A DNA stretch of 40,069 nucleotides, taken from positions 1 through 40,069 of IMG/VR virus record IMGVR_UViG_3300021961_000228, one strand, 5' to 3'. Both the position numbers and the translations under genes were made by a program. This document shows, piece by piece, positions 18,521-40,069 of this stretch (the stretch's first letter is position 1; the number at the start of each line of letters is the position of its first letter). The notes under the pieces were generated by a model. The model made no database searches, was not told where the DNA came from, and saw only the letters and a list, made by a program, of their open reading frames with translations. The DNA is from a virus.

Positions 18521-19303
18521 ATGATTAGTCTATCAGACCTTCTAACAGAGGCTAAATTGCCAGCAAGTGAACAAGACATGGACTTGTATGCTAAAAAATA
18601 CAAGAAGACCATGGATTATTTGCGTAGTAAAAACAAAGTGTTACTATTGACTACAAGTAATCGTTGGTCTCAACATAAAGACGATGTTCCAAAAAGCAGT
18701 CAGTTAGCCATTAAAATTCAAGAGTTGCTTGGCAAAGAAAAAGTAACATTGATTGACACAACAAAACTACACATCGTTCCATGTGAAGGTAATGTGAGTA
18801 GCAACAAAGAGTTTGGTGGCAACCATTGTGGAACGATTGGTGCTTTATTGAAAAACAAAGAACAAAATCCAAGTGGTCATCATCGTTGTTGGGCTAGTGT
18901 AAATGAGAAGGGTGACGAACTTTGGAAGATCAGTAAGGAGTTGTTTGAGAGTGATTGTGTATTATTTTTTGCAAGTGTTAGATGGGGTCAAGCCAACGGT
19001 TATTATCAAAAGTTGATTGAACGTTTGACTTGGATTGAAAATAGACACTCGACTTTGGGTGAATCCAATCTAGTTAAAGATATTGATGCTGGATTTATTG
19101 CTGTTGGTCAGAACTGGAACGGTAAACACGTTGTTCAAACACAAAAGAGTGTTCTTGAATTTTTTGGATTCAAGACACCGGACCAATTGTTTTGGAATTG
19201 GCAATTTACAGATGATGCCCTTGATGAAACCAAACGTTCATACTTAAAAGGCGTATCTACATTCGAAAAAACATTTATTAAACCATATGATAAAGCTGAG
19301 TAA
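18521..19303 (+). CDS. Flavodoxin-fold NAD(P)H oxidoreductase-like protein with capsid targeting peptide
   Basis: 260 residues. The N-terminus MISLSDLLTE|AKLPAS matches the shared head-targeting peptide with a prohead-protease L-x-E site after residue 10. The rest resembles flavodoxin-like NAD(P)H-dependent FMN reductases: a first strand NKVLLLTTSNRW where the FMN phosphate loop would be, an acidic central strand SDCVLFFASVRWGQANGYYQKLIERL and a late VGQNWNGKHVVQTQ segment. FMN binding is not proven by a clear motif. I infer packaging in the head and ejection with DNA; possible roles are redox defence or nucleotide metabolism at the onset of infection. It overlaps the next gene by 17 bases, implying coupling. 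Confidence 0.65.
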   Translation: MISLSDLLTEAKLPASEQDMDLYAKKYKKTMDYLRSKNKVLLLTTSNRWSQHKDDVPKSSQLAIKIQELLGKEKVTLIDTTKLHIVPCEGNVSSNKEFGGNHCGTIGALLKNKEQNPSGHHRCWASVNEKGDELWKISKELFESDCVLFFASVRWGQANGYYQKLIERLTWIENRHSTLGESNLVKDIDAGFIAVGQNWNGKHVVQTQKSVLEFFGFKTPDQLFWNWQFTDDALDETKRSYLKGVSTFEKTFIKPYDKAE

Positions 19304-20339
19304 TATTTTGTCGGAAGTTCTTAGAGAAGGTGGTGCTGGTGGTCACATGGAACATCCATTTGACTTTGCATCCAACGGAAAACAACTAGTTGACATCTTT
19401 CAGAAGTCCATTAACTCTTTGGAAAAGGGAACTGGTAGTGTAAAGATTGACGGTGTTAATGCAAGTATTCGTTTGGTTAATGGAGAATTTGTGATGGACC
19501 GTGGTAGTGCAAAACCATTAGACATCAAGGGAATGCGTCCACAAGATCTATCTGCTAGATTTTTACCAAATCCAGAAACAGGTGCTGAACATGGATTCAT
19601 CAAGATTGGTTCTACTGTAATTCAAATTTTTGATGATGCAATTCCATCAACAACAAACGAGTTGAAGGCTCTTGGTTTGTTGAACAATCCAAACATTTTA
19701 TTGAACGTTGAATATGTTGAGGGACAAACAAATGTTTTGGGTTACGAAGACATCGGTAACTTCTTGGCAATTCACGGTTTGAAAGAAATCAAACCCAAGA
19801 CGTTTGGTAAGGATGGTAGTGTCAAATCCAGAGTAGCTACTGAAATTCCTTATGATAAGACAGTCATGCAATCATATATCAATAAGTTGAATGTGTTTGC
19901 TAAGAAACGTGGATTTAAGGTATTGGGTAGTGTTGACACCAAGTTTAAGACCAAGCCAAACCTCTCCAAACCACTCGGTGAAAAGGTTACTTTGTATCCA
20001 CAAGGTAATCCAGTCACAAAGAGTTTGAAGGATTGGTTAAAAGATGTAAATATTCAAACACCATTGATTACCCGTGAACAGTTCCAAAAGGCTGTTGCTA
20101 GTAAGAATATTGCCATGGATTTTGAGGGACAAGATATAGATAAAGTTGTCAATGATACAGTTGTATATTTGGCAACGATCAAGCTTGGTGATGAAATATT
20201 AAAGAATGCTACTAGTGAAATTGGTGATCTTGAAAAACACGAAGGAATCGTGGTCAGAGATCCTAGTATTCACAGTAGTCCATTTAAAATAACTGGTAGT
20301 TTCATTATTAAGGGACTACAAAGTGGTTTTGGGAAATAA
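19287..20339 (+). CDS. Polynucleotide ligase-like nucleotidyltransferase with capsid targeting peptide
   Basis: 350 residues. It begins MIKLSNILSE|VLRE|GGAGGHM, with two prohead-protease sites; cleavage after residue 14 would leave GGAGGHMEHPFD. The ATP-dependent ligase/capping superfamily motifs follow in order: motif I SVKIDGVNAS (Lys53 would be adenylylated), VMDRGSAK (R72, G73), motif III-like LNVEYVEG (E142), motif IV EGIVVRD (E319) and motif V region FKITGSFIIKG (K334, K342). Whether it seals RNA or DNA cannot be told. No OB-fold domain is obvious. The targeting peptide suggests it is packaged and delivered with the genome, where it could mend nicked phage DNA or host tRNA cut by anticodon nucleases. 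Confidence 0.72.
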   Translation: MIKLSNILSEVLREGGAGGHMEHPFDFASNGKQLVDIFQKSINSLEKGTGSVKIDGVNASIRLVNGEFVMDRGSAKPLDIKGMRPQDLSARFLPNPETGAEHGFIKIGSTVIQIFDDAIPSTTNELKALGLLNNPNILLNVEYVEGQTNVLGYEDIGNFLAIHGLKEIKPKTFGKDGSVKSRVATEIPYDKTVMQSYINKLNVFAKKRGFKVLGSVDTKFKTKPNLSKPLGEKVTLYPQGNPVTKSLKDWLKDVNIQTPLITREQFQKAVASKNIAMDFEGQDIDKVVNDTVVYLATIKLGDEILKNATSEIGDLEKHEGIVVRDPSIHSSPFKITGSFIIKGLQSGFGK

Positions 20340-20357
20340 AATAAATAAATATTGGTT

Positions 20358-21005
20358 ATGAAAAGAGCACAAGGCAAAAGCAATCTGGAGATTGTAAAAG
20401 ATTATCTGGACGGAAATCGACCATTTATACAAGTTGGTTACACCGAAGACATAAATAACGCCACACGTAAAGAAGGTGAAGAGTGGGAGGATGGTCAAGG
20501 TCGTAAATGGGTTTGGAAGAATGGTAGCAAACGTCGAGTTCCAAAGAAGGTTATAATCGACAACAAACAAATTTGTAAGCAATGTAGTGCCGACGTTCGT
20601 TGGGGTAACTATTTGGATTCACAAGTTTGGCCCAAGACACATTTGTGTTATGACTGTTTCACTAACAATGAAACTAAGATGAAGATGGATGGAACTTGGG
20701 AATACTTTGACAAGATCCGTGACTTTAAGAATGAGAAAGCAATTTTGTCTGAATACAAAAAGAAGTTTGATGAAACTCTCAAGTGGTGTGAAGAAAAAGA
20801 GGGTAAACCTCTTGAGTTTATCAACGAAGATGGTTCTATAGAAAAGTGGGAGGGTGAGACCGGTCTTGATAAGATCAAACAAGATGTTTTGAAGGATCTT
20901 GAGTATGTAAATGCTAGATTGTCAGAAATCGACACGTTTATTGACAATTTAGAAAAAGAATATGAGTCAGCAAAATCTAAGAGAAATAATAAAGCAGGAG
21001 TATAA
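20358..21005 (+). CDS. Zinc-finger protein, candidate small terminase subunit (gp16 position)
   Basis: 215 residues from the ATG at 20358 (a TTG two codons upstream is in frame). Residues ~73-100 hold CKQC and CYDC pairs that form a four-Cys zinc site. The C-terminal half is charged and helical, likely a coiled coil (LEYVNARLSEIDTFIDNLEKEYESA). It overlaps the large terminase gene by 44 bases, the place of gene 16 in T4. Small terminases have a DNA-binding N-terminus and helical oligomerisation core, which fits loosely, but T4 gp16 has no zinc finger and I see no sequence match. Function is inferred from position. Confidence 0.6.
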   Translation: MKRAQGKSNLEIVKDYLDGNRPFIQVGYTEDINNATRKEGEEWEDGQGRKWVWKNGSKRRVPKKVIIDNKQICKQCSADVRWGNYLDSQVWPKTHLCYDCFTNNETKMKMDGTWEYFDKIRDFKNEKAILSEYKKKFDETLKWCEEKEGKPLEFINEDGSIEKWEGETGLDKIKQDVLKDLEYVNARLSEIDTFIDNLEKEYESAKSKRNNKAGV

Positions 21006-22575: not shown

Positions 22576-22599
22576 TACTTATATATAAGATAGCATTAT

Positions 22600-24631: not shown

Positions 24632-25504
24632 ATGCGCAAAAAAGCTAAACATTCTAAGTTTAAGAATAGCGGAGTATTGTTTGAGTTGCTCACGCGACAG
24701 ATTACCGCAGATATATTGGCAGGTCGTGACGAATCGTTCACCAAGAATTTGATGTTCAAATATTTTAACGAAAGCACTGCGCTCGGAAAAGAATTTCAAC
24801 TATACAATTTTATAGTAAGTCAATCTTCTAAAAATGCCGAGTCTGCTGATCGTATTTTGAACGTAGTATTACAAACTCGTTCAAAACTAAATGAACGTGA
24901 GTTGAACTCCGAAAAATACAACCTCATCAAAGAAATCAAGGAGCAGTTCAACATCGATGAATTTCTAAAGAATAAAATTCCAAACTATAAACTTTATGCC
25001 TCGGTATACAAGTTGTTTGAAAACCAAGGATCTGATGAAGTTAAGTTTGATGTAGAAGAAATTTTGGAAGCAAGAGAGTGTGTGGTAGAAAGTTTGACAA
25101 GAGAAAAGAAGAACGAAGAACAAGCTTTGGATGTATATAGTTCTCAACCAGCCGAAGTGAAGTTACTCGCATATAAGTTCTTGATCGAAAACTTCAATAA
25201 GAAGTATTCTTCTTTGTTGCCTGCTCAAAAGGTATTGTTGAAAGAATTTATTACAAACGTTTCCAACACTAACAAGTTTACTGAATTTGTTAATAACGAA
25301 TACAAGAGGGTTGCTGACCTTCTCAAGGAAAGATCGATTTTGGTTAAGAATGATATTATCAAGATCAAGCTTAACGAAACGGTTGCTCAGCTTTCAAACA
25401 AAACACTTACAGGCATTGTAAAGGAGAATCAATTGACTCCTCTTTTGAGTGCTTATGAGTTGATAGAAGAATTGAATAAACTTGCTGATGAAAAAGCTTC
25501 TTAA
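24632..25504 (+). CDS. Hypothetical head-module protein (gp67/gp68 position)
   Basis: 290 residues, highly charged and predicted largely helical, starting MRKKAKHSKFKNSGVLFELL. No signal peptide, membrane segment or targeting peptide. It lies between portal and prohead protease, where T4 has the small head-core genes 67 and 68, but it is much longer than either and I see no match. The Lys/Glu-rich helical character suits a prohead core or vertex factor. It overlaps the next gene by 17 bases. Role inferred from position only. Confidence 0.62.
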   Translation: MRKKAKHSKFKNSGVLFELLTRQITADILAGRDESFTKNLMFKYFNESTALGKEFQLYNFIVSQSSKNAESADRILNVVLQTRSKLNERELNSEKYNLIKEIKEQFNIDEFLKNKIPNYKLYASVYKLFENQGSDEVKFDVEEILEARECVVESLTREKKNEEQALDVYSSQPAEVKLLAYKFLIENFNKKYSSLLPAQKVLLKEFITNVSNTNKFTEFVNNEYKRVADLLKERSILVKNDIIKIKLNETVAQLSNKTLTGIVKENQLTPLLSAYELIEELNKLADEKAS

Positions 25505-26597
25505 AGAATCAGGCGATCCATTTAGAGATATTGTAAAAAAATACGCTCAATTGTATCGTGATAATGAATTGGCACGCATTGATAAAGCGCAATATCACGC
25601 GTGGCTACAAGCACATGCTGACAAGATTACACCAGCTGTAAAAGCAAGTGTCGAAAAAAAAGTCAAGGATCAGTTAAAGAATAAGAATGAAGCATCCACC
25701 AGTAGTGCTGCTGGTGCTTATATGACTCCCTTTGCCTTTTCTCGTAAAGGGCCTGGAAATGTTAGAGCTGCAACACAACTTGGTTTCAAGTTGGCTAAAC
25801 CAGTCAAGAAAAGTCCTGGATATGCTTTAGAAAACCAAATGTATAGTGAGCCAGCATATGTGACACCAGCACAGAACATTGAACCTGTAGATACCTACGA
25901 GGATGAAAATGGATTGGTTCAACATGGAGATCCAGAATTAGATCCAGGTTTGGCAGGCAAGACACAAACAACTCTTCCAACTACAGAACAACGTAATTCT
26001 GTAAAGAAGATCGTTGAAGGATATCGTGCTTCTAGATTTTTGACTAGAGAAGCGGAAGCTGGCCAACAACCTGCTCCAGCTCAACCTCAACAACAAGCTG
26101 CTCCTCAACAAGCTGAACCCGCTGTTAATGTTCAATCATATGACATCCAACCAGACTTTACTCAATTTGACACCAAGTTGAAGGATGCAACTGAACAAAC
26201 TAAGTTGGAACTTCAAAAGAAGATTCAAGACCAAATTTTAAACAAAAAGATTGTGGTTCGTGCTAGCAAGGGATACAAACAACCAGAAACAGATTACACA
26301 ATCAATGTTACTGGTGTTCAAATCGATTACTATTATGATCGATATGTAATCATCATTCTAGGTCGTGAAGAAAGTAAACAAAAGGCAGCCAAGTTCTTTG
26401 TAAAGCCTGGATTCAAGATTAAGATTTTGGGACCAGCCGATGTAAAGCAAAGAGACAAGTATCAAATTGCTAAATCAAAAGCATTGGTTGATCCATCACA
26501 ACAAACGTCTGCTGGAGCATCTAATGTTGTAACTTCAAAACAACAACCAGCTAAACCAGAAGAAAAACCTGAGGCACAACCAGCCCTACCAGCTTAA
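25488..26597 (+). CDS. Head-core protein with N-terminal prohead-protease site
   Basis: 369 residues from the ATG at 25488; an upstream in-frame TTG at 25482 is less likely. It begins MKKLLKE|SGDPF, a short form of the shared targeting peptide. A helical basic region follows, then a segment (AGAYMTPFAFSRKGPGNVRA) that I recall from other T4-like head proteins, a Gln/Pro/Ala-rich linker (~185-210), a folded beta-rich domain (~225-330; IQIDYYYDRYVIIILGREE-like) and a Pro/Gln/Lys-rich tail. It ends one base before the protease ATG. Likely an internal or core protein of the head; the exact role is unknown. Confidence 0.65.
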   Translation: MKKLLKESGDPFRDIVKKYAQLYRDNELARIDKAQYHAWLQAHADKITPAVKASVEKKVKDQLKNKNEASTSSAAGAYMTPFAFSRKGPGNVRAATQLGFKLAKPVKKSPGYALENQMYSEPAYVTPAQNIEPVDTYEDENGLVQHGDPELDPGLAGKTQTTLPTTEQRNSVKKIVEGYRASRFLTREAEAGQQPAPAQPQQQAAPQQAEPAVNVQSYDIQPDFTQFDTKLKDATEQTKLELQKKIQDQILNKKIVVRASKGYKQPETDYTINVTGVQIDYYYDRYVIIILGREESKQKAAKFFVKPGFKIKILGPADVKQRDKYQIAKSKALVDPSQQTSAGASNVVTSKQQPAKPEEKPEAQPALPA

Positions 26598-26598
26598 T

Positions 26599-27207
26599 AT
26601 GAAAACAGTATTAATTGACGTATTACCATTTGAATTCAAAAAGACCGCACTTAACGAATCGTTGAGTAGTGGTAAACTTCTTGTGACCGGCACACTACAA
26701 CGTGCTGAAGCAAAGAACCAAAATGGTAGAATTTATCCAAAAGAAATTTTAGAGCGTGAAGCTACTAAATACATGGACAACTTTGTTAAGCAACGTCGTG
26801 CCATGGGTGAACTTGACCATCCAGAGTCTTCTGTTGTTAACTTGAAGAATGTCAGTCATAACATCGTAGACATGGGTTGGGATGGTGATGATTTGGTTGG
26901 AACTGTAGAAATTCTTCCAACTCCAAGTGGTAACATTCTTAAGGATCTTCTCAAGGCTGGTATTCTATTGGGTATCAGTAGCCGTGGTTTGGGTAGTGTT
27001 AAGAAAGATATGAGAGAGGGTGCCGATGTGGTTCAAGACGATTTTGACTTGATCGCATTTGATTTTGTAAGTAATCCTTCTACTCAAGGTGCATTCATGT
27101 ATCCACAAGGAAAGATCACTGAAAGTGTAAATCCTTCTGGAAATAGAATCATCAATCCTTATTCAAATATTGAGAGAATCATTCACGATATCATCTCAGA
27201 GTTGTAA
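26599..27207 (+). CDS. Prohead protease (gp21-like)
   Basis: 202 residues, close to the 212 of T4 gp21. The serine protease fold of the assemblin/U9 type is marked by AMGELDHPESS (catalytic His) and ILLGISSRGLGS (catalytic Ser), with VVQDDFDLIAFDFVSNPST after it. KITESVNPSG near the C-terminus is an I-T-E|S self-cleavage site of the family's specificity. It removes scaffold and trims capsid and internal proteins after L/I-x-E, and is the expected processor of the targeting peptides found on many proteins here. The ATG starts one base after the upstream stop. Confidence 0.92.
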   Translation: MKTVLIDVLPFEFKKTALNESLSSGKLLVTGTLQRAEAKNQNGRIYPKEILEREATKYMDNFVKQRRAMGELDHPESSVVNLKNVSHNIVDMGWDGDDLVGTVEILPTPSGNILKDLLKAGILLGISSRGLGSVKKDMREGADVVQDDFDLIAFDFVSNPSTQGAFMYPQGKITESVNPSGNRIINPYSNIERIIHDIISEL

Positions 27208-27317: not shown

Positions 27318-27863
27318 ATGATAAAGCTAAGACATCTAGTAGAGAATTCCACAGAAACCGCTTATTCTCCTTTGACCAAGGAAGAGAAGATTAAACTACG
27401 TGAGACAGTAAAGGCTTATAACGAATATCGTAAGAGTCTCAAAGCTGACTGTGTATATTCTACCGCTTCCAAGATTATGGAAGCAGTCAATTTGGCTGAA
27501 CGCTATGCTATCAAGGAGTGTGGTGAGTGGATGGAAGCAAAGATGGTCGAGCGTGACATGAAGGAAGTCAAGAAGTTGGCTGCGAAGCTTTATGAAGAAG
27601 CAAACAAGATCAAGGGTGTCGAACATCAACTTGAAATGCTTTATGAAGAAATTGGTTTGAAGTTGGAACGTTACTTTGAAATTTCTGATCCGGTCACCGA
27701 GGCTCCACAAGCATTTCAGACACAAAATCATCAAGGTTCGGTAAGCACTGCAAGTCCTCCTGACCCAGCTGCTTGGGGAACAGCTGTAGAGAATAAAGAA
27801 TTGGCCGGTGCTCAACCAATTACACAACCACACCAACAACCACCTTATCAATCACAGAGGTAA
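27318..27863 (+). CDS. Helical head-core protein with capsid targeting peptide
   Basis: 181 residues from the ATG at 27318 (a TTG two codons upstream is in frame). It begins MIKLRHLVE|NSTETA, with an L-V-E protease site after residue 9. Residues ~18-125 are strongly helical and charged (EEKIKLRETVKAYNEYRKSL; GEWMEAKMVERDMKEVKKLA), likely a coiled-coil bundle. The tail is Pro/Gln/Ser-rich. It lies between protease and scaffold, so a prohead core role is likely. I do not recognise the family. Confidence 0.68.
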   Translation: MIKLRHLVENSTETAYSPLTKEEKIKLRETVKAYNEYRKSLKADCVYSTASKIMEAVNLAERYAIKECGEWMEAKMVERDMKEVKKLAAKLYEEANKIKGVEHQLEMLYEEIGLKLERYFEISDPVTEAPQAFQTQNHQGSVSTASPPDPAAWGTAVENKELAGAQPITQPHQQPPYQSQR

Positions 27864-27870: not shown

Positions 27871-28035
27871 ATGAAAATGTTTTTGCTTGAAGCCTGGTGT
27901 TGGTCTTATGGTGTAGGAAATTGGATTGTAGATCACAAAAACATCTTGGCGATTATAACTACATTAATTGTTATTGGTAAAGTATATTGGTCTGCGTTTA
28001 AGACACAGACCATGATTCGATCAGCACAAAGGTGA
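27871..28035 (+). CDS. Small membrane protein with LLE|A N-terminus
   Basis: 54 residues, MKMFLLEAWCWSYGVGNWIV then a single hydrophobic segment at ~24-41 (NILAIITTLIVIGKVYW). The LLE|A near the start resembles the protease site of the packaged proteins, though the charged part of the targeting peptide is missing. AGAGG lies ~10 bases before the ATG, inside the upstream gene's end. It is probably cotranscribed with the core gene. It could be a small inner-membrane protein such as a holin or exclusion factor, or a packaged membrane peptide. Confidence 0.55.
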   Translation: MKMFLLEAWCWSYGVGNWIVDHKNILAIITTLIVIGKVYWSAFKTQTMIRSAQR

Positions 28036-28037: not shown

Positions 28038-28397
28038 TCATTTAGCTTTTAGTTTGGGATCTGTTGGAATCGAATCAATAAATTCGATCATCTTCTTAAA
28101 AGTTTCGAAAACATGACGACGGGTAGTTTCGAGAACATATCCATCTTCGTCTTTATAAACCTTAACTGGAACTTTTTCTTCCATCATTTCTAAAGTAGGC
28201 ACTTCTACTTCACACACCATATCAGTGTCATTGTCGATTTTGAATCCCATATCACCAAGGGTCTCAATTTCATTGAAGCTCCAACCATTTGGGTGATCAA
28301 TGTCAATCAACTTGTATTTTGGAGAATCGGTTTCGTCCCCACCCTTGTTTAGGAAATTGCTCAATTTAACTTGAGCATATAGGTTTTTATAGTCCAT
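28038..28397 (-). CDS. Hypothetical acidic protein (minus-strand pair)
   Basis: 119 residues from the ATG at 28397; a TTG at 28415 would add six residues. The product is acidic (TLEMMEEKVPVKVYKDEDGY) and mixed alpha/beta, with no membrane segment. It overlaps the end of the upstream minus-strand gene by 11 bases, so the two are coupled. It ends two bases from the convergent small membrane gene, with no terminator visible between. Family not recognised. It belongs to a two-gene insert between protease and scaffold genes, a place uninterrupted in T4. Confidence 0.6.
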   Translation of the reverse strand: MDYKNLYAQVKLSNFLNKGGDETDSPKYKLIDIDHPNGWSFNEIETLGDMGFKIDNDTDMVCEVEVPTLEMMEEKVPVKVYKDEDGYVLETTRRHVFETFKKMIEFIDSIPTDPKLKAK

Positions 28398-28995
28398 ATG
28401 AATTAATTCTATCAATGAAGTCTGCTAATATTTTGTTTTTTTCTTCACCACCATCATTATCAAAGATACTGCTCAACATGTATACTACTTTTTCTTTGTT
28501 ATCTTCTGGATTATCACTTTGTTTAGATGGTGTGATACCAATAAAGCAACCGTAATTGTATAAGCCTGGATTTTGGTTATTCACTAACTTCTTAAACACA
28601 TAATCTTTGTTTGATTCGTTGCTAGTGATATTTGCTTTGATTTCGTTACTACTCTTTTTGTGAACAAAATTTGCTTTACCAAATCCACCAAAACCATTTT
28701 GTTTGTTTTGGAATGTTAGAAGTTCTGCTTTATCAAACTTTACACCCGAGTTTTCTCTCAATACATCGTCCAATGTTTTATCTGGAACTTCTTGCATCTT
28801 TGCAGAACTGAATTCAGATTCACTTAAATTCTTTAGTAACTCTTTCAACTTGGTGAAATCTCTTACAGCCTTTGGTGACATACTTTTCGCGGTCTTTCTC
28901 AAGTCCTTAGATACGTCCTTCGCAGGAACATCACCTTTTTGAACTGCTCTAACGAGTCTAAAATATTGTGCTTGTTTTTCAGATTTTGCTGGCAT
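28387..28995 (-). CDS. DUF3008-like N-terminus protein (minus-strand pair)
   Basis: 202 residues from the ATG at 28995, giving the start MPAKSEKQAQYFRLVRAVQK. This resembles the small DUF3008 family (MPAKSxxQ...G...AVQKG). A longer frame reaches 29127, but the ATATTTATA motif 5 bases before 28995 and the family-like N-terminus favour the shorter form. The rest (KSMSPKAVRDFTKLKELLKN; later YNYGCFIGITPS) is not recognised. The gene is divergent from the scaffold gene and sits in the head module on the opposite strand, which suggests later insertion. Function unknown. Confidence 0.62.
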   Translation of the reverse strand: MPAKSEKQAQYFRLVRAVQKGDVPAKDVSKDLRKTAKSMSPKAVRDFTKLKELLKNLSESEFSSAKMQEVPDKTLDDVLRENSGVKFDKAELLTFQNKQNGFGGFGKANFVHKKSSNEIKANITSNESNKDYVFKKLVNNQNPGLYNYGCFIGITPSKQSDNPEDNKEKVVYMLSSIFDNDGGEEKNKILADFIDRINSYGL

Positions 28996-29145: not shown

Positions 29146-30240
29146 ATGAGCGATCTATTAAAGGAAAGCATCGCAGACGCAAAGGCAGTTCGTGAAACTG
29201 CAATTGCTAATGCAAAAACCTTTCTTGAGGAAAACTTCGCAAAGAGCATGAAAGAAATGTTCGCAGAGAAGCTCAAGGAAGAGTCAGAACAAGAAAACGA
29301 AGGTAACGAAGAAGGCAAGATCGAAGAGAAGCTTGCATCTTCTGGTATCGGTAAGGATGACAGTAATATTGCTTCTAAGCAACATCCAACCAAGCCTTCT
29401 ACATCGGCAACAAAGAACACCACTCCAGCTGGAAAACAAGAGTTCGACGCAACTCTTGAAGAAGGCGAAGAAATCACCAGCGAAGAGTTGGATGAGATTC
29501 TTGCTGAGTTGGAACAAGAAGGTAACAAGGAAGACGGTGAGGAAGAGAAGCATGAAGTTGTAGCTGAAGAAGAACAAGCTTCTGAAGAAGAAGTTGTTGA
29601 TCTTGACGAACTTCTCGCTGAATTGGAAGAAGATGGTCAAGCACCAGTTGCCCCAGTGGCCCCAGTGGCCCCAGTTGCTGATCCAGCAGCTGCAGTAGCA
29701 GCACCAGCTGCCGCTATGGCTCCTCAAGCTCCAGTAGCACCAGTTGCTGGACAAGTTCCTTCCCCAATGGAAGGAGACACTAATGAAGAAGAAGTGACTG
29801 CTGAAGAAATGGCAGAAGCACTTGTTGCTATCAATGAAGAAAACGAAGCATTGAAGAATCAATTGAAGGAACATCAAAATACTGTGAAGTATTTGAAGGG
29901 TGTTCTTGAAGAAACCAATCTCTTGAATGCTAAGTTGCTTTATACCAACAAGATCTTCAAGGGTAAGAATTTGACCGAAGACCAAAAGTTGAAGGTCATC
30001 AACACATTTGATCTCACCAAGACATTGCGTGAAATCAAATTGGCATACACAGTTTTGGCCGAATCATTTAATGCCGGTGGATCAGTCGCCAAGAAAAAGT
30101 CAAATGCGACTGTCTCAACTATCACCGAAGGTTTGGCAAGCAAACCAGTATCCAGCACAAAGCCTGACTCTACGATTGTAGAACCTCAAGCTGATGTGAT
30201 GGCTTCAAGATTCCAAAAGCTCGCAGGAATCAAGAAGTAA
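29146..30240 (+). CDS. Prohead core scaffold protein (gp22-like)
   Basis: 364 residues. ATG at 29146 is preceded by a strong Shine-Dalgarno sequence (AGGAAAGG, 29127-29134); an in-frame codon at 29095 would lack it. It begins MSDLLKE|SIADAKAV, with L-K-E a protease site. The centre is very acidic (Glu-rich, ~130-175), followed by a Val-Ala-Pro repeat, a coiled coil (NEENEALKNQLKEHQNTVKY) and a C-terminus VMASRFQKLAGIKK typical of gp22-type scaffolds. TITE|GLAS is another likely cut site. The position just before the major capsid gene agrees. The scaffold is degraded by the protease to clear the head for DNA. Confidence 0.85.
   Translation: MSDLLKESIADAKAVRETAIANAKTFLEENFAKSMKEMFAEKLKEESEQENEGNEEGKIEEKLASSGIGKDDSNIASKQHPTKPSTSATKNTTPAGKQEFDATLEEGEEITSEELDEILAELEQEGNKEDGEEEKHEVVAEEEQASEEEVVDLDELLAELEEDGQAPVAPVAPVAPVADPAAAVAAPAAAMAPQAPVAPVAGQVPSPMEGDTNEEEVTAEEMAEALVAINEENEALKNQLKEHQNTVKYLKGVLEETNLLNAKLLYTNKIFKGKNLTEDQKLKVINTFDLTKTLREIKLAYTVLAESFNAGGSVAKKKSNATVSTITEGLASKPVSSTKPDSTIVEPQADVMASRFQKLAGIKK
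29640..29690 (+). repeat. Val-Ala-Pro tandem repeat in the scaffold gene
   Basis: A 12-base unit close to CCAGTGGCCCCA repeats about three times in frame, encoding PVAPVAPVAPVA. Later VAPVA copies at ~29735 are more diverged. The tract forms a flexible linker between the acidic region and the coiled coil. Confidence 0.75.
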
Positions 30241-30286: not shown

Positions 30287-32017
30287 ATGGACGTAAAGAG
30301 TCTACTAACAAATAATATGAATCCACAGGCTAAGCTAATGGCTGAAACCCGTGGTCTTCAAAACAAGTGGGAAAAGACAGGTCTTCTCGAAAACACCACA
30401 GGTGTTGAAAAGGCACACATGTCGATCCTCTTGGAAAACCAAGCAAAGCAATTGTTGGACGAAGCTTCAACAACTGGAACTAGTGCAAACAGTGAACAAT
30501 GGGCAGGCGTTGCTCTTCCATTGGTCCGTCGTGTATTTGCTGAGATCGCTGCTAAGGAGTTCGTTTCGGTTCAACCAATGAACCTCCCAAGCGGTCTTAT
30601 CTTCTATCTCGACTTCAAGTATGGTTCCGGCACTCAATTGGGACACACTGCAGGCGAAAGCTTGTTCGGTGGTAACCAAAAGAAGCTCGGTTCTACTGAT
30701 GCTGCTGTAAATGGTCTCTATGGCCAAGGACGCTATGCTTATTCTGAGCGCACCGTCTCTAGCTCAAACGCAACTGTTCTCGTAGCTACCGCAAGCTGGA
30801 ACGATCTACAATTCGATTCTTCTTTCAGTGCTTCCGTTAACGGTTCTAACGAAGTTCCAGGTGTCTACAAGATTACCTTTAACATCGACGACAACACCGA
30901 AACAAAGCCAGGTTCCGGTAACCTCTGGAACGTTGACTTGAACGCAGTTCGTTCTTTCGGTGTTCAAAAGAGTTCTGGTGTAGCTTACACTGTATTGAAC
31001 ACTTACGCAACCGCAGTTAACACTGGTAGCTTGGCAAACCCATACTATCAAATTAACTTGTTCGTAAGTCAATCTGCTGGTGCAGCTGCTCCTACTACTA
31101 CCGCACGTTTGAACTACACAGTTCAACCTTCGGACAACCTCCGTGGTGACTTCGAAGACGGTAAGACCGCTGGTGAAGGTTCTGGTGTTGCTAACAACGT
31201 CTATACCCAATCTATCGGCACTGACATCAAGATCCCAGAAGTCAACCTTGAGTTGAAGAGCGAACCAATCGTTGCTAAGACTCGTAAGTTGAAGGCTGTC
31301 TGGACCCCAGAATTGGCTCAAGACTTGAACGCATATCACTCTATTGATGCAGAAGCAGAACTTACTGCTCTCTTGAGTGAGTATGTTTCGATGGAAATCG
31401 ACCTCGAAATCCTCGACATGTTGAACGAGTCTGTCACTGGTGTAACTACCGAAGCTTGGTCTGCCCAAATCGGAACTGAGTTCACCAAGACTGTAAACAA
31501 CACCACCGATGTGGCTTCGTTCACCCGTGTTGTTAATGCTTCAGCAAACCGCACCGCTTACGTAAAGAGCACTTGGTTCCAAACTCTTGGTAACAAGATC
31601 CAAAAGGTCTCTAACAAGATTCACCAATTGACTCTACGTGGTGGCGCAAACTTCTTGGTATGTTCGCCAGACGTAGCAACCATCTTGGAGTCAATCCCAG
31701 GATATGTTGTGAACACTGACGGTGACCAAGCTAAGTTCGCAATGGGTGTAAGCCGTGTTGGTAGCTTCGCAAGTCGCTTCCAAGTTTACAAGAACCCATA
31801 CATGACCGATAATGCTATCCTCGTTGGTTTCCGTGGTAGCAACTTCTTGGAGACTGGTGCTGTGTATGCTCCATACATCCCACTCATCCAAACTCCATTG
31901 GTCTATGATCCAGTGAACTTCACTCCACGCCGTGGTGTGATGACTCGCTACGCTAAGAAGGTAGTGCGTCCTGAGTTCTACGGTAAGGTCTTGATCGCCG
32001 ATCTCGACACCGTATAA
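30287..32017 (+). CDS. Major capsid protein precursor (gp23-like)
   Basis: 576 residues (T4 gp23 is 521). The N-terminal propeptide is helical and ends at QLLDE59|A60STTGTSA, an L-D-E protease site close to the T4 position (residue 65). After it, WAGVALPLVRRVFAEIAAKEFVSVQPM and PSGLIFYLDFKYG are the start of the HK97-fold capsid domain. LKAVWTPELAQDLNAYHSIDAEAEL and the C-terminal GVMTRYAKKVVRPEFYGKV also match T4-like capsids. Codons are C-ending and strongly selected (TTC, AAC, AAG, CTC), the mark of a very highly expressed gene. A Shine-Dalgarno AGGA precedes the ATG, and a terminator with a GAAA loop follows. Confidence 0.95.
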   Translation: MDVKSLLTNNMNPQAKLMAETRGLQNKWEKTGLLENTTGVEKAHMSILLENQAKQLLDEASTTGTSANSEQWAGVALPLVRRVFAEIAAKEFVSVQPMNLPSGLIFYLDFKYGSGTQLGHTAGESLFGGNQKKLGSTDAAVNGLYGQGRYAYSERTVSSSNATVLVATASWNDLQFDSSFSASVNGSNEVPGVYKITFNIDDNTETKPGSGNLWNVDLNAVRSFGVQKSSGVAYTVLNTYATAVNTGSLANPYYQINLFVSQSAGAAAPTTTARLNYTVQPSDNLRGDFEDGKTAGEGSGVANNVYTQSIGTDIKIPEVNLELKSEPIVAKTRKLKAVWTPELAQDLNAYHSIDAEAELTALLSEYVSMEIDLEILDMLNESVTGVTTEAWSAQIGTEFTKTVNNTTDVASFTRVVNASANRTAYVKSTWFQTLGNKIQKVSNKIHQLTLRGGANFLVCSPDVATILESIPGYVVNTDGDQAKFAMGVSRVGSFASRFQVYKNPYMTDNAILVGFRGSNFLETGAVYAPYIPLIQTPLVYDPVNFTPRRGVMTRYAKKVVRPEFYGKVLIADLDTV

Positions 32018-32075: not shown

Positions 32076-32847
32076 ATTGGAAAAATTCGTTGTTATTACC
32101 CACTACAACTTCTTGTATTTGTTCTGTGAAAGATGTTGATTTCGGATAGGGTAACAGTTTATGTATCAACGATTTTGACAGCCGTTTATTTTCAATCTTG
32201 TTACTGATGAACTTGATGTAACGGTGTTTGCCACTCTCACGTTTGCGCCAGAACGTTTTTCCTATACGTTCCTTAAGTTTGTCCACATTGTGTGTTTTCC
32301 ATCTACCATAGACGTTTCTACTGTGTATCCAATCATAGTTGGGTGGTCCAACCAAACTAACACTGTAATTTGGCATCAATGCGATATCAACATAATTGTC
32401 GCCTTGGTATAAGAAGCCGGTTGCTTGATAAATGGTTCCGGCATGTCCAACTTCGCTGTCAGCATAACTCAAGATACACTTGATTTGAGGAAACTCCATG
32501 TTCAACAATCTGAAACTTTCTGCTATGCAGTAACTTTCTATGTTACTACCGTGACCGTCTTCAATCCACAATCTGGTCAATTCAAATACGTTATCATTGG
32601 TTAGTAACGGAGTTATACTGGTGCTTGAGTTACGTCCTACAGCATTACCGTATACAAGAACCCCAATCAATCTACTGTCAAATCCTCCAAAGAACGTGCT
32701 TTCAACATAATCTTTGGTATACACACCATATGCTACAGAACAACTGGTCCACTTGTGTGTATAGTGGTTCTTTTCGATCAAATTACGTGCGACCGATTTG
32801 TTGATCGATTTTAGATATATCAGCGATGTGTCACAATATTTTGACAT
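32074..32847 (-). CDS. Mom-like DNA modification protein (GNAT fold)
   Basis: 257 residues from the ATG at 32847; a GTG at 32880 would add 11. The sequence follows the phage Mu Mom pattern: KNHYTHKWTSCSVAYGVY, LIGVLVYGNAVGRN, ELTRLWIEDGHGSNIESYCI, and CILSYADSEVGHAGTIYQAT then GFLYQG. Mu Mom (about 240 residues) converts adenine in phage DNA to an acetamido/carbamoylmethyl derivative that blocks many restriction enzymes. The motif-like ATTTAT lies ~11 bases before 32847. It stands alone on the minus strand between the capsid terminator and a divergent gene, as an accessory insert. Likely protects phage DNA from restriction. Confidence 0.78.
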   Translation of the reverse strand: MSKYCDTSLIYLKSINKSVARNLIEKNHYTHKWTSCSVAYGVYTKDYVESTFFGGFDSRLIGVLVYGNAVGRNSSTSITPLLTNDNVFELTRLWIEDGHGSNIESYCIAESFRLLNMEFPQIKCILSYADSEVGHAGTIYQATGFLYQGDNYVDIALMPNYSVSLVGPPNYDWIHSRNVYGRWKTHNVDKLKERIGKTFWRKRESGKHRYIKFISNKIENKRLSKSLIHKLLPYPKSTSFTEQIQEVVVGNNNEFFQ

Positions 32848-32900
32848 GTTAATATCATAAATGAGTGTGGTGAAATACACAAGTTTTTATACACCGATTC

Positions 32901-33852: not shown

Positions 33853-34455
33853 ATGATCAAGCTTAACGACCTGATAGAGAGCGACTCGCTTTGCTCAATG
33901 AACTTGTTGGAAGAAGTAGAGACAACTTCCAATTTACGATATCATTTGTCAAAGAACATACCTTTGTGTGAGAACATTTTTCGAACCTACAGTGAATCTT
34001 ACTTTGAGTTGATTGATGAAGTTCGTAAATTGTATTATGACAACCTAATAGAGTTGTGTGATGCAGATGCTGAATTGGTCGAGAGTGATCTTGGTAAGAA
34101 GGAAGTATTTGAGGGTCGAGAGGTTTATTTGGATGCTCCTATTGAAGTCGAAGAAGATTTGATCATGGAGTTGAAACACAGAGGTCGCACTGTTCATCTC
34201 AATAGACCATTCAGAACTCCAGGCGGTCCTAAGAAATACGCCGTGTATGTCAAATCAAAAAACGGCAACGTGAAGAAGGTAACTTTTGGTGATCCAAATA
34301 TGAGAAGTAGAGCTAGTAGCAAGGCTCGTCGTAAGAGTTTTGCCGCTAGACACAGATGTAGTCAAAAGAAAGATAGAACTACAGCTGGTTACTGGAGTTG
34401 CCGTAGTCATCGTATTCGTAGTTTAGGAAACAAGGGTAAAGGAAAATACTGGTAA
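33853..34455 (+). CDS. Packaged protein with basic Cys-containing C-terminal domain
   Basis: 200 residues. It begins MIKLNDLIE|SDSLCSMN with an L-I-E site, and NLLE follows. The middle is acidic and helical. The C-terminal ~85 residues (GGPKKYAVYVKSKNGNVKKV, then FGDPNM, ARHRCSQKKDRTTAGYWSCR) are strongly basic and form a domain I recall from virion proteins of T4-like cyanophages and marine phages; C-terminal SLGNKGKGKYW is also basic. Two conserved Cys in RHRCSQKK and YWSCR could bind zinc. A basic domain on a head-targeted protein suits binding to packaged DNA. Function not established. Confidence 0.68.
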   Translation: MIKLNDLIESDSLCSMNLLEEVETTSNLRYHLSKNIPLCENIFRTYSESYFELIDEVRKLYYDNLIELCDADAELVESDLGKKEVFEGREVYLDAPIEVEEDLIMELKHRGRTVHLNRPFRTPGGPKKYAVYVKSKNGNVKKVTFGDPNMRSRASSKARRKSFAARHRCSQKKDRTTAGYWSCRSHRIRSLGNKGKGKYW

Positions 34456-34460: not shown

Positions 34461-35744
34461 ATGGTTAAACTAATTGATATTTTGGTGGAGAATCCCGATA
34501 CTGTATATTATAAGAGAAAGACTTATAGCTATACTTCCCCAGCTAACAGATGTGCTTTTTTCGTTTATGAAGACGACAAGAGTGGTAAAAAGTCAATATT
34601 TGGATATAGTGACAACAAAAAACAGTTTTATTCAGATGATAGTGATGTATTAAAAGACATCAAAGAGATGGAAGATAGTGAACAACTCAAATATAGTGAT
34701 GATTTTCAAGGTGACGAACAATCAAAGTATTGGGCACAACAAGGTATCAAACGATTAAAGGCTAGTAACAATGGTGGTGGTCATTTGCAATTGGAAAATA
34801 TTCTAAAGGGATTGGGTAGAATGGGTCAATATTCAGATCCCATCATGAAGGGTAGAATCTTTGAGGTAGACAATACAGATGGTAAACCACCTGAAAATTT
34901 GGATTTACAAATTGAAAGCACAATACCAAGTGGTAAAGCTATCATTGTAACATTCTGGGATTATAATGAAGACAAGGTAATTCCATACAAAGATCAATAT
35001 GAAAAAGTCATAGAGTTTAATGGATATAATCCAACTGAGTGTTTGTATGAAATTGGTATCAAAATAAGGTCATACAATGAACTGTATGACAAAGAAGAAC
35101 CTAAGAAAGAAACTCCTCCACCTACACCTAAACCATCTGCTACAGACGAAGCTGATAAGTTTTTCAAAGTGGGTGACAAAGTAAAATTTAAAGGAATGGG
35201 TATAAAAGCTGTTGTTAAAGCTATTAAAGGTAATAATTTATCGATAAAAGTAACTGATAGTGATTGGAACACTACACCGGTTGGTAGTGAATTTGATTAT
35301 CCATATTGGGGAGTTGATAAATTAGAACAAGATAATAGTTTGGAAAAAGTAATTGATGATAAGACTCAAGAGTTTATTGAAAAGAGAGGAAAACTTCATA
35401 CAACAGGAGCGAAACTTACGCCTGCTGAAAAGGATAATTTAGAAAAAGAAGTAAATGGGTTAGAAGTGGAAATTAAAATATTGAATGATCTTTTGGTATC
35501 GGGTGAGAAGTATTATAATGATAACATTAAGAATACTGTTGCTACTGTAGTTGCTCGTAAATTGGCATCTTTAGAAAAAGAGAAACAAGATAGATACAAT
35601 CTGATTACTCAAGCTGAAAAACAATATGGTATGCCAATTGCGCAACTAAGACAAAAGTATAGAGGTGTGCCTTTGGACCAATTGGTAAAGAAGGAACATT
35701 TGATTCGTGAAATTATTAGAAAATATGTTACTCGTAGAAAATAG
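34461..35744 (+). CDS. Packaged protein with SH3/KOW-like domain
   Basis: 427 residues, starting MVKLIDILVE|NPDTVYY, a clear targeting peptide with an L-V-E site after residue 10. An N-terminal folded region (~11-210) is not recognised; it contains GRIFEVDNTDGKPPENLDLQ. After a Pro/Lys linker (KEETPPPTPKPS type), residues ~233-292 (FFKVGDKVKFKGMGIKAVVKA to YPYWGVDKLE) look like a small SH3/KOW barrel. The C-terminal third is helical and charged. ATTTAT lies directly before the ATG. It overlaps the next gene by 38 bases. Likely ejected with DNA; function unknown. Confidence 0.62.
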   Translation: MVKLIDILVENPDTVYYKRKTYSYTSPANRCAFFVYEDDKSGKKSIFGYSDNKKQFYSDDSDVLKDIKEMEDSEQLKYSDDFQGDEQSKYWAQQGIKRLKASNNGGGHLQLENILKGLGRMGQYSDPIMKGRIFEVDNTDGKPPENLDLQIESTIPSGKAIIVTFWDYNEDKVIPYKDQYEKVIEFNGYNPTECLYEIGIKIRSYNELYDKEEPKKETPPPTPKPSATDEADKFFKVGDKVKFKGMGIKAVVKAIKGNNLSIKVTDSDWNTTPVGSEFDYPYWGVDKLEQDNSLEKVIDDKTQEFIEKRGKLHTTGAKLTPAEKDNLEKEVNGLEVEIKILNDLLVSGEKYYNDNIKNTVATVVARKLASLEKEKQDRYNLITQAEKQYGMPIAQLRQKYRGVPLDQLVKKEHLIREIIRKYVTRRK

Positions 35745-36240
35745 ACACGTTGAAAAAGGTTGTTTAATGGCACATGTAAGTCCCACTTATGGACCACATG
35801 TAATTAGACTTGGTAGAACCGCAATACCACCGCAAATACTATATACCGATCCCAATGATCCTACATATGGTTATGATGAAGAACCTCATGTGACTCTCAA
35901 GTATGGATTTGAACCAGATATTGGTAGACCCGATGTTGCTAGAATCCTTCAAGGTGTAAAGCCATTTAATGTGGTATTGAAAGCACTCAATTTGTTTGAA
36001 AATGATAAATTTGATGTGGTTAAGTTTGAAGTTGAAAAAAGTCCTATATTGACCGAATTGAGACGTAGATGTGATGGTTATCCTAATAGTGATAGTTATC
36101 CAGACTATAAACCTCACATGACACTAGCTTATGTGAAGAAGGGTAGCTTTCCACACATCAAAGATAATCTAAATATATCTTTACCAATTACCAGATTCAA
36201 GTATAGTGGTCCAAAAGGCAAATACTTTATAAACCTATGA
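35707..36240 (+). CDS. 2H phosphoesterase with capsid targeting peptide
   Basis: 177 residues from a GTG (MKLLENMLLVE|NRHVEKG); the ATG at 35725 gives MLLVE|NRHVEKG, and either form keeps an L-x-E site. The two catalytic motifs of the 2H superfamily are clear: PHVTLKYGF (His61, Thr63) and KPHMTLAYVKKG (His137, Thr139), spaced ~76 residues apart. Members hydrolyse 2',5' or cyclic phosphodiesters, including tRNA-splicing ends, 2-5A and, for the T4 Acb1 protein, the cyclic oligonucleotides of CBASS. Packaging would place the enzyme in the cell before transcription. It overlaps both neighbours (38 and 4 bases). Substrate unknown. Confidence 0.78.
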   Translation: MKLLENMLLVENRHVEKGCLMAHVSPTYGPHVIRLGRTAIPPQILYTDPNDPTYGYDEEPHVTLKYGFEPDIGRPDVARILQGVKPFNVVLKALNLFENDKFDVVKFEVEKSPILTELRRRCDGYPNSDSYPDYKPHMTLAYVKKGSFPHIKDNLNISLPITRFKYSGPKGKYFINL

Positions 36241-36740
36241 TCAAGTTAAAAGACATTCTCAGTGAAGTTGCTAATGCAGATATCAATCAAATTGCATCCA
36301 CATTAGCATTTAAGCCAGTAACCAAACAAAAGTTGGTTTATAAATACATTGACGGAGGTAAGCCTGGTTCTATGCCTCCAATGACATATACCAAATCAAC
36401 CATTCAACAACCAGTAGTTACTACAACCAGTGATGGTAAAGAAACACAAAACACTGCTGAAGTTGGTGATATTATTTTTAGTGGTGCTACTGGTGAGAAT
36501 TATGTAATCAAGGCAGCTAAGTTACCTAAGTTATATACTGGTAATGTTGGTGGAGATATTTATCCAGAACAATCTCCAAGACAAGTTGCTTTGTATACAG
36601 GCGAACCAGTAACATTTAAAGCTCCGTGGGGAGAAGATATGATTATTAAGCCAGGCGATTATTTGGTAAAAGACCCAGCTAATACTGGTTATTATCGTAT
36701 TGCTAAAGTTGAGTTCGAAAAGACATATAACAAATTGTAA
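36237..36740 (+). CDS. Small packaged protein with capsid targeting peptide
   Basis: 167 residues, start overlapping the preceding stop (ATGA). It begins MIKLKDILSE|VANADINQ with an L-S-E site after residue 10. The body is beta-rich (VGDIIFSGATGENYVIKA) and ends in FKAPWGEDMIIKPGDYLVKD then YYRIAKVEFEKTY, a compact module that I have seen in other phage proteins but cannot name. No catalytic motif is evident. Likely an internal head protein translated together with the 2H phosphoesterase. Confidence 0.65.
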   Translation: MIKLKDILSEVANADINQIASTLAFKPVTKQKLVYKYIDGGKPGSMPPMTYTKSTIQQPVVTTTSDGKETQNTAEVGDIIFSGATGENYVIKAAKLPKLYTGNVGGDIYPEQSPRQVALYTGEPVTFKAPWGEDMIIKPGDYLVKDPANTGYYRIAKVEFEKTYNKL

Positions 36741-36746
36741 ATTAAA

Positions 36747-36775
36747 CCGCAGTATTAACTGTGGGCATAGCAATT
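36747..36775 (+). terminator. Weak possible terminator before the tail fibre gene
   Basis: CCGCAGT pairs with ACTGTGG (one G-U) around an ATTA loop. A short T-stretch (ATTTTCT) follows only ~10 bases later, so it would be inefficient. Confidence 0.3.
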
Positions 36776-36779
36776 TTCT

Positions 36780-36789
36780 AATATTTATA
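36780..36789 (+). promoter_or_regulatory. Start-proximal AATATTTATA motif
   Basis: AATATTTATA ends 7 bases before the ATG at 36797; no Shine-Dalgarno sequence. Confidence 0.55.
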
Positions 36790-36796
36790 ATAAACT

Positions 36797-38977: not shown

Positions 38978-39024
38978 TTGATTAAATCATCAGTGAGTCA
39001 AGTGTGTAGATCTAATTATAGTCT

Positions 39025-40026
39025 ATGATCAAGTTAATGGATTTATTGAAAGAGGGCGGCAAACTATTTGGTAGTAGAGCCAGTAGAGTTACTACATCTG
39101 AAATGAACAGTGTTTTTGACGAACTCAAGAATCAACTGGGTAATAGTTTTAGCAAGTTTGAATTGAGTAAATCACTACCATCCAAACAAGATCATGGTGA
39201 TATTGATATTGTGTTGACAGGATCGTCTGGTGATATCAAGAACACGTTGTTATCTAATTTGGGTAATAAGGTAAAGGATTATAGTCGTAACGGAAATATC
39301 TATAGTGTTCTTTACAAGTCTGATTTGGGTAAGGATGTTCATGTAGACTTTCTGTATGCGGATACAGACGATGACTTTGACGCACAAAAGACTTATTTAG
39401 CACTAGGAGACTTTAGTGGTATATTGGGTGTAATGGCTAGACAAAATGGTTACAAGTATGCTACTACAGGTTTTCAAAAGATTTATGTAGATAAAAGTGG
39501 TAGACATCACGATATACTAATTACTAAGAATCTAAAAGACGGTTTGAAAATACTTGGTTATGGTGATGTATTGGGTGATTACGATAGTATACAAAACAAT
39601 GATGATGTTGTTAAGTTTATTAGTGGTAGTCCTATGTTTGATAGCGATGACTATAAGGGTCAAACTATGAATCACAGTGATCGTAAGAGAGTTAGAGCTG
39701 GTAGACCTAGTGCTGATTATATTAGAAAGTCATTGATTGGTTTGAATAAACACAAACAGATTAGTGACCCAGACTATTTCTTGAAGCGGTTGTTTCCAGA
39801 AAAGTATCAGATGTTGTTGGATAAACAAAAAGAGATTGAATCATTTACCCCAGTTAAATCCAAATATGGTGGTGAGTGGTTGATGGCTAATTTTCCACAA
39901 TTAAAGCCAGGACCAATGTTGGGTAAGATCAAACAATATTGGACACAGAAGTATGGTGATAACTTGGATAATGTGCCAGAGGATGAATTGAAGAGAGACA
40001 CTGATATTTATATCAAATCATTATGA
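39025..40026 (+). CDS. Nucleotidyltransferase with capsid targeting peptide
   Basis: 333 residues. It begins MIKLMDLLKE|GGKLFGSRAS; cleavage after residue 10 leaves GGKLFG, much as in the ligase-like protein. The pol-beta-type nucleotidyltransferase core is visible: LPSKQDHGDIDIVL (G58, D59, D61) and DVHVDFLY (D108) as metal ligands. The C-terminal half (MNHSDRKRVRAGRPSADYIR; DPDYFLKRLFPEKY) is helical and basic. Family members add nucleotides to RNA, DNA, proteins or small molecules; the target here is unknown. Packaging would deliver it with the genome. Its last codons overlap the next gene. Confidence 0.74.
   Translation: MIKLMDLLKEGGKLFGSRASRVTTSEMNSVFDELKNQLGNSFSKFELSKSLPSKQDHGDIDIVLTGSSGDIKNTLLSNLGNKVKDYSRNGNIYSVLYKSDLGKDVHVDFLYADTDDDFDAQKTYLALGDFSGILGVMARQNGYKYATTGFQKIYVDKSGRHHDILITKNLKDGLKILGYGDVLGDYDSIQNNDDVVKFISGSPMFDSDDYKGQTMNHSDRKRVRAGRPSADYIRKSLIGLNKHKQISDPDYFLKRLFPEKYQMLLDKQKEIESFTPVKSKYGGEWLMANFPQLKPGPMLGKIKQYWTQKYGDNLDNVPEDELKRDTDIYIKSL
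40004..40012 (+). promoter_or_regulatory. ATATTTATA motif upstream of the last gene
   Basis: ATATTTATA ends 10 bases before the ATG at 40023, inside the 3' end of the nucleotidyltransferase gene (it encodes part of IYIK), so coding constraint may explain it. Confidence 0.3.
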
Positions 40027-40069
40027 ATTTACTTGAACTACTAAAAAAGCATAGATTGACCGAGGGTGT
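40023..40069 (+). CDS. Start of another targeting-peptide protein (3' truncated)
   Basis: ATG at 40023 overlaps the upstream stop (ATGA). The 15 visible codons give MNLLELLKKHRLTE|G, again a Leu-rich amphipathic N-terminus ending in an L-T-E|G protease site. The rest lies outside the window. Confidence 0.6.
   Translation, partial: MNLLELLKKHRLTEG

Follow-up and report, generated by a model that had tools for sequence, protein, structure and literature searches.

The window analysed here is the whole of IMG/VR virus record IMGVR_UViG_3300021961_000228, a linear sequence of 40,069 bases. Twelve of its proteins begin with a short peptide ending in L/I-x-E, which is very probably a T4-type capsid targeting leader cut by the prohead protease gp21. 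On balance, gp21-encoding phages far from T4 appear to run a general head-loading system. Its leaders would belong to four or more interchangeable classes, all ending at or close to a gp21-type site, at which leaders are gained, lost or swapped; the enzymes and inhibitors that it delivers with the genome would be very numerous (at least 171 families), and part of them would form an early nucleic-acid repair kit. The motif, its statistics, the residue pattern, the protease, the modularity and the link with gp21-encoding phages were observed directly.

Translations agreed with the 12 N-termini given in a preliminary description of the window, and a peptide ending in [LI]-x-E was present in 12/12 of them, against 1/19 other starts. 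The proposed motif layout stood as regards the shared peptide, but E was residue 9, not 10, in 27318 and 33853. The statement that the proteins share no likeness beyond the peptide was borne out by blastp of residues 21 onward, which placed them in different families. Gene calls were mechanical (longest frames, no gene finder), family counts take in the near-identical relative G001 where stated, and the predicted cut is written below as a slanted bar after E.

18521..18550, + strand: leader MISLSDLLTE/A of a flavodoxin-fold-like protein (18521-19303); kept in 7/7 family members, G001 included
19287..19316, + strand: leader MIKLSNILSE/V of a putative KxDG ligase/nucleotidyltransferase (19287-20339); 6/6 family members, G001 included
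25488..25508, + strand: short leader MKKLLKE/S of a putative prohead core protein (25488-26597), between portal and protease
27318..27344, + strand: leader MIKLRHLVE/N of a putative prohead core protein (27318-27863); [LI/F]xE by residue 16 in 50/53 family members
27871..27891, + strand: short leader MKMFLLE/A of a 54-residue protein (27871-28035); present in G001 too
29146..29166, + strand: short leader MSDLLKE/S of a gp22-like scaffold candidate (29146-30240), adjoining the major capsid gene
33853..33879, + strand: leader MIKLNDLIE/S of a protein with a phrog_7595 domain (33853-34455); [LI/F]xE by residue 16 in 27/33 family members
34461..34490, + strand: leader MVKLIDILVE/N of a protein whose fold was not recognised (34461-35744); 3/3 family members, G001 included
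35707..35739, + strand: leader VKLLENMLLVE/N (GTG start) of a 2H phosphoesterase (35707-36240); homologs with and without leader
36237..36266, + strand: leader MIKLKDILSE/V of a protein that is PGDYG-like below cut-off (36237-36740); present in G001 too
39025..39054, + strand: leader MIKLMDLLKE/G of a Pol X-like nucleotidyltransferase (39025-40026), from translation and a fold match
40023..40064, + strand: leader MNLLELLKKHRLTE/G of a P-loop (zeta/AAA_33-like) kinase running off the window end; fuller gene in G001

The proteins at 25488, 27318, 27871 and 29146 are probably prohead core or scaffold proteins and less likely injected cargo, because they are located in the head-assembly cluster beside gp21 (portal to capsid genes); the candidate view that every listed gene is cargo was rejected for these four. 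No PHROGs match was found for 25488-26597 or for 29146-30240.

[LI]xE occurred within residues 1-16 at 13 of the 31 plus-strand window starts tested (minus-strand frames and the truncated frame 2-844 being outside the 31), namely in the 12 listed genes and the terminase at 20962; shuffled N-termini gave a mean of 5.2, and 0/5000 shuffles reached 13. Among 437 non-redundant genes, taken from the window and from 80 related loci, the strict motif turned up 15 times (shuffle mean 0.24, maximum 2 in 200), and it was present in 0/1441 segments beginning at an internal Met. Per record it occurred 0 to 5 times (shuffle means 0.02-0.11), with none in G009. When N-termini were compared between otherwise unlike proteins of 644 families, 39 pairs scored at least 30, against 5 with shuffled N-termini and 3 among 512 internal-Met segments. 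When the N-termini of 2063 proteins in 753 families were compared blind, the largest group of similar N-termini was made up of 47 families; most had the window-type peptide or a second one, MKKSELKQLIKE or MTRNELKQLIRE, and a few members had no leader. The next cluster, of 7 families, resembled ordinary secretion signals.

Four leader classes were distinguished, written as MIKLxDLLxE (class A), MKKxELKxLIKE..LxE (class B), FDLKKFLxENKLTxNSxLLxE (class C) and QFxRMQxLAGIxxE (class D); classes B, C and D were first met as recurring N-termini in Flavobacterium phage immuto and its relatives. Permuted-pattern controls were run for classes A, C and D. The DNA pattern for MIKLxDLLxE was found in at least 120 stretches of viral contigs vs. 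27 when its codons were permuted. Among the class A matches listed, 129/129 frames ran without a stop for 40 residues or as far as the stretch extended (control 14/27), 103/129 had no in-frame upstream start codon (control 15/27), and 125 proteins were 40 residues or longer and formed 61 families. The class B scan (MKKxELKxLIKE) likewise gave at least 120 stretches; among the matches listed, 104 of the 110 with a readable start lay within 10 residues of it, and 109 proteins formed 60 families. Class C (FDLKKFLxENKLT) was found in 82 stretches and class D (QFxRMQxLAGI) in 58, with 0 and 0 for the permuted patterns. The pattern lay within 10 residues of a readable start in 65/72 (class C) and 43/46 (class D) cases, and 75 and 45 proteins formed 34 and 27 families, respectively.

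Past the search pattern, [LI]xE recurred three residues on in 90% of class D, seven and eight residues on in 30% and 49% of class C, and eight and four residues on in 43% and 24% of class B. Beyond this recurring site the sequence of classes B-D turned variable. An L/I-x-E at a fixed place in an unselected stretch agrees with what is predicted for a gp21-cut leader. The expectation that 10-15 N-terminal residues suffice to find new cargo proved correct, as the pattern scans retrieved further leader-bearing proteins; relaxed patterns added false positives (terminase).

That AT-rich phage N-termini often look alike, through chance or composition, would explain the behaviour of loose patterns: [LI]xE alone appeared in 5.2 of 31 shuffled starts, and a relaxed pattern topped all 300 shuffles in only 4/13 records, stayed within shuffle range in 9/13, and also caught terminase N-termini as false positives. 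Loose patterns are therefore unfit for counting, and the proposed profile search with a shuffle enrichment test held for the strict motif, far above shuffles, and not for the relaxed one. The strict motif and the blind clustering, however, exceeded chance; shuffles, internal-Met segments and permuted patterns, used as controls, refuted this explanation for the strict motif, and its probability is negligible. Recent recombination that copied the 5' part of a gene, promoter and first codons together, with the peptide itself having no function, is also most improbable. MIK is spelled ATGATCAAG in three window genes and a TATTTATA box is frequently found upstream of genes, as such copying would predict, but upstream sequences differ, and in seven window genes the shared leader residues had the same codon in 33/93 cases vs. 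37.9 expected from codon use. Codon agreement was not above codon use; the protein is therefore conserved, and not a recently copied DNA segment, and copying was rejected on this test. Conservation within families also fell sharply after residue 10, a weak result since members were selected by the motif.

With the leader removed, the 342 proteins of the four classes formed at least 171 families, of which 7 had more than one leader class, in accordance with the earlier description of a large, modular set that includes enzymes. One leader swap occurred at the predicted cut, between class A ..LLNE/GKQVGILYHYT and class B ..ILNE/GKQVGTLYHFT (E 4.4e-12); this protein is possibly an ADP-ribosyltransferase, a family member having matches below cut-off only. 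A HAD-like protein gained a leader, MIKLKDLLLE/KKLRVFDFDDTL vs. leaderless MSKKLRVFDFDDTL (E 4.8e-37), and a second HAD family had members both with and without leader. The 2H phosphoesterase at 35707 had leaderless homologs in Maribacter phage Molly_5 and in a 484-kb phage, and a homolog with a leader-like start in a 642-kb phage. Judged from these sequence comparisons, the leader behaves as a detachable module: it spreads to further proteins, and one class can take the place of another.

The window contains a T4-type head cluster with the terminase large subunit at 20962, the portal at 22600, the gp21 protease at 26599, as had been described, and the major capsid protein at 30287; a tail sheath gene lies at 14429.

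26599..27207, + strand: gp21-type prohead protease, the predicted leader cutter (phrog_207, E 5.8e-54)
30287..32017, + strand: gp23-type major capsid protein, a context gene (phrog_138, E 7.3e-70)

By capsid protein, the nearest named phages were Microcystis phage Mel-JY01 and immuto (about 51% identity), followed by Rhodothermus phage RM378 (37% identity). The phage is aquatic and T4-like, and its group is presumably that called far-T4, after the place of RM378 in the literature. gp21 was present in 20/20 related contigs searched. The class A search covered 35 of the 80 listed loci, all on contigs of at least 20 kb (L194, the same as G001, left out), and gp21 (phrog_207) was found in 18/35 of them vs. 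2/16 control contigs of at least 20 kb (of 27 searched; Fisher p 0.012). Among 31 long contigs of classes B-D (from 60 kb upward for class B and from 54 kb for classes C and D, with immuto excluded), gp21 was found in 27: 7/11 for class B, 12/12 for class C and 8/8 for class D. By capsid gene, 28 of these 31 contigs were T4-like (one by a short partial match), and the link with gp21 is therefore partly a matter of phage group.

Inserts were seen in some gp21 genes. In G006 (C1:74418-76124) and G008 (C1:16939-18651), the contigs of L035 and L054, some 1 kb of additional sequence, perhaps an intein, splits the gp21 gene without breaking the open frame of 595-605 residues. gp21 also lay within frames of 630-714 residues in five class B-D contigs, and frames of 394-404 residues with an intein-like appearance adjoined terminase genes in relatives.

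The residue pattern was derived from 98 of 753 families, chosen on residues 2-3 only. Hydrophobic residues (LIVMF) peaked at residues 4, 7 and 8 (58, 56 and 48%; background 28%), and E was residue 10 in 24/98 families (background 6%). Information content was highest at residues 4 and 7, followed by 5 (0.41), 8 and 10 (0.39 each) and 6 (0.36); in 192 control families with other starts it was at most 0.26 at all positions from residue 4. According to PMC9026906, suppressor mutagenesis of T4 IPIII showed that residues 4 and 7 are the main ones for targeting and residues 8 and 10 those for processing, and gp21 cuts after L/I-x-E; the earlier comparison with the T4 capsid targeting sequence and its cleavage agrees with this source. 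The features of T4 capsid targeting were found here as well: a peptide of about 10 residues on otherwise unrelated proteins, hydrophobic determinants at 4 and 7, and L/I-x-E at 8-10.

A leader profile, built from 54 far-T4 families selected on residues 2-4, was scored on residues 4-11 of 281 called T4 genes. gp24 ranked 2nd, Alt 5th (scored from a start one codon ahead of the annotated one), IPI 20th, IPII 23rd and IPIII 24th of 281, which suggests a moderate similarity of the profile to the processed N-termini of T4. T4 gp61.1 (54 residues; L133:18966-19130), which starts MKTFKEFIKE, ranked 7th of 281 and may be an overlooked T4 internal protein.

Several results weigh against the reading of the peptide as a gp21-cut leader. 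The top profile rank among T4 genes went to the RNA ligase rnlA, which to our knowledge there is no reason to think packaged, and gp67, gp68, gp21, gp22 and gp23 ranked from 29 to 237 of 281; the profile is therefore a lead and not proof, and misses some gp21 substrates. Residue 5 was as informative as residues 8 and 10, with residue 6 close, so that the four T4 positions stand out clearly, but not alone. The numbers of class A and class B stretches are lower bounds. The control contigs came from a different source, with more isolate prophages. gp21 was not found in 17/35 long class A contigs or in 4/11 class B contigs. Sixteen of the 17 also had no capsid-protein match and may be fragments; G052 (44 kb), by contrast, had capsid, scaffold and sheath genes and no gp21 match, and two class A contigs, one of 207 kb, had a sheath gene without a gp21 or capsid match. 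Targeting, packaging, cleavage, ejection and the action of cargo in the host are what we infer.

Two further explanations accept the peptide as a signal. The first, which is unlikely, is that it serves sorting to, or docking at, some other phage structure (the tail, the baseplate, the replication compartment or the host membrane) and not entry into the head. A short amphipathic helix could dock elsewhere, and localisation is deduced from sequence, but the peptide is common to head-cluster proteins on both sides of gp21 (25488, 27318, 27871, 29146), it ends, or recurs, at the gp21 consensus, the head-processed T4 proteins gp24 and Alt match it well (ranks 2 and 5 of 281), and gp21 was encoded by all 20 long class C and D contigs searched. 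Somewhat less improbable, though still doubtful, is targeting without injection, in which the carriers are prohead assembly helpers that stay in the capsid or are degraded. Four of the 12 window genes look like core or scaffold proteins, and in T4 proteins of both kinds are cleaved to fragments (PMC9026906). Against this, many carriers are enzymes without a plausible assembly role (2H phosphoesterase, CCA-adding, ADP-ribosyltransferase, zeta-like kinases, Pol X-like), and many T4 internal proteins, as well as Alt, are ejected (PMC9026906).

If the peptide is a T4-type capsid targeting leader, its residues 4 and 7 would bind the growing prohead core, and the carriers would be co-assembled into the core and enclosed on shell formation. 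gp21 would trim them after the E of L/I-x-E (residues 8-10) during head maturation, and the trimmed proteins would be sealed in with the DNA and then ejected into the next cell; T4 Alt and many internal proteins are ejected with DNA (PMC9026906, PMC12373910). In the first minutes in the host, the cargo might repair nicked or cleaved nucleic acids, modify host proteins or remove nucleotide signals, and the repair kit (ligase-like, kinase, HAD, 2H, CCA-adding and Pol X-like proteins) would act ahead of any phage gene expression.

The targeting sequence of T4 IPI, IPII, IPIII and Alt (Mullaney and Black 1996, via PMC9026906 and PMC3012670) likewise consists of about 10 N-terminal residues on unrelated proteins, hydrophobic at 4 and 7 and with L/I-x-E at 8-10, in a phage encoding a gp21-type protease. 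The T4 consensus is MKTYQEFIAE, vs. MIKLxDLLxE here; in contrast to T4, there are several leader classes, far more cargo families and many enzymes, as predicted from sequence. The T-even anti-restriction internal proteins (PMC12373910) resemble the present set in being diverse accessory proteins with one shared N-terminal signal; T-even ip genes had already been found by that signal, with at least 10 reported, and internal proteins, IPIII among them, enter the virion by virtue of a sequence motif (PMC9391042). The principle was therefore already known. T-even cargo consists of restriction inhibitors, whereas enzymes are found here: 2H phosphoesterase, ADP-ribosyltransferase, zeta-like kinase, HAD, CCA-adding and Pol X-like proteins. 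Similarly, the giant phages phiKZ and SPN3US package and eject proteins trimmed after x-x-E by a gp21 relative (PMC5694885). Their propeptides differ from the leaders described here, which have 7-25 residues and L/I-x-E: those of SPN3US are mostly longer than 100 residues (one of 20) and are cut after A-x-E, and phiKZ has S-x-E.

In the open literature, with most subscription papers outside the search, the exact leader peptide strings were not found, and the listings searched gave no account of the leaders, their several classes or their swapping, or of so large a set rich in enzymes. Word searches did not find 'prohead' or 'protease' in a far-T4 genome paper (PMC4360716), nor 'capsid target' or 'internal protein' in a review of T4 relatives (PMC2993671), and among the papers listed for three phage names none was plainly virion proteomics of these phages. 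The scale, the enzyme content, the several leader classes and the leader swapping go beyond the published accounts found.

Among phage proteins, the injected ones encounter host defences first, and few are known because they resemble nothing else. With a leader readable from 10-25 N-terminal residues, unknown genes of a widespread group of aquatic phages can be ranked as predicted virion cargo, and each protein has a predicted mature N-terminus, so that a direct test by proteomics is possible. If the reading is true, capsid targeting would be an evolvable sorting code with several dialects, delivery with the genome would be comparable to the secretion signals of bacterial effectors, and the leaders would provide new tags for loading proteins into phage heads.

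The window cargo consists mainly of nucleic-acid and nucleotide enzymes, with many other folds elsewhere; most cargo has no recognisable domain. The 35707 protein is a 2H phosphoesterase (PF13563, E 4e-13), and its candidacy as the anti-CBASS enzyme Acb1 was rejected (PF23474, 24.4 bits vs. a cut-off of 27). The 39025 protein matched phrog_24943 and, by fold, DNA polymerase lambda (E 2.5e-5; mean predicted local distance difference test, pLDDT, 67.0), and is modelled as Pol X-like; a PDB sequence search gave 0 matches. The 18521 protein had a flavodoxin-fold match (E 1.7e-4; mean pLDDT 59.8), is modelled as flavodoxin-fold reductase-like, and had no Pfam or PHROGs match. As both models are of low confidence, only the fold class was used. 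The 19287 protein is a putative KxDG ligase, weakly indicated by Pfam RNA_ligase (E 0.057, below cut-off) and by a KIDG, which we take to be the KxDG ligase motif. Neither 18521 nor 19287 had a match among 50,697 phage records, and 34461 had none above the Pfam cut-off. The 40023 frame is the start of a P-loop kinase, whose G001 counterpart matched AAA_33 and Zeta_toxin above cut-off.

In relatives, 6/40 scanned proteins passed the Pfam cut-off. They included a CCA-adding enzyme (PF01743, E 9e-21), whose match to one PDB chain begins at phage residue 33 and chain residue 12 and which therefore has about 20 extra N-terminal residues, and an ART-PolyVal ADP-ribosyltransferase (E 2.1e-10; other ADP-ribosyltransferase matches were below cut-off). 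Two zeta-like kinases, a GNAT acetyltransferase and an amidoligase with a class B-type leader were also above cut-off. Some relatives may be kinase-phosphatases like T4 Pnkp, with a HAD phosphatase after a P-loop kinase in a single chain: L171 and L175 matched single HAD proteins from about residue 250, behind a P-loop (E 1.7e-37 to 4.8e-24), and the Pfam match of L190 was below cut-off.

Elsewhere in the window, the sheath protein (14429-18400) has 1323 residues, about twice the length of T4 gp18 (659 by annotated coordinates), and its best sheath match is to the C-terminal part (residues 996-1321). Right after the capsid gene, on the minus strand (32077-32850), lies a Mom-family DNA modification protein (PF25680, E 2.7e-42), probably an anti-restriction trait. 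The TATTTATA box was found at most 30 bases before the start codon in 6/34 called window genes (6531, 18521, 24632, 32914, 33853, 36797; 0.3 expected by shuffling), in 20/229 immuto genes (1.5 expected) and in only 2/253 Mel-JY01 genes (1.3 expected); the T4 late box TATAAATA showed no clear enrichment upstream of genes. TATTTATA is possibly a late promoter, very near the start codon, for part of this phage group. Two adjoining proteins at 2-2633 have long TPTPTPT repeats, and a run of glycosyltransferase-like genes follows at 2686-5734 (PF11397, E 1.8e-57, and PF01755, E 2.7e-6, above cut-off; a group 1 match below). The minus-strand protein at 28390-28995, for which no Pfam match was found, starts MPAKSEKQ...SMSPKAVRDFTK, and a protein of L083 (2914) starts MPAQSEKQ...KMSPSSLKHF; this start is perhaps another recurring N-terminal module.

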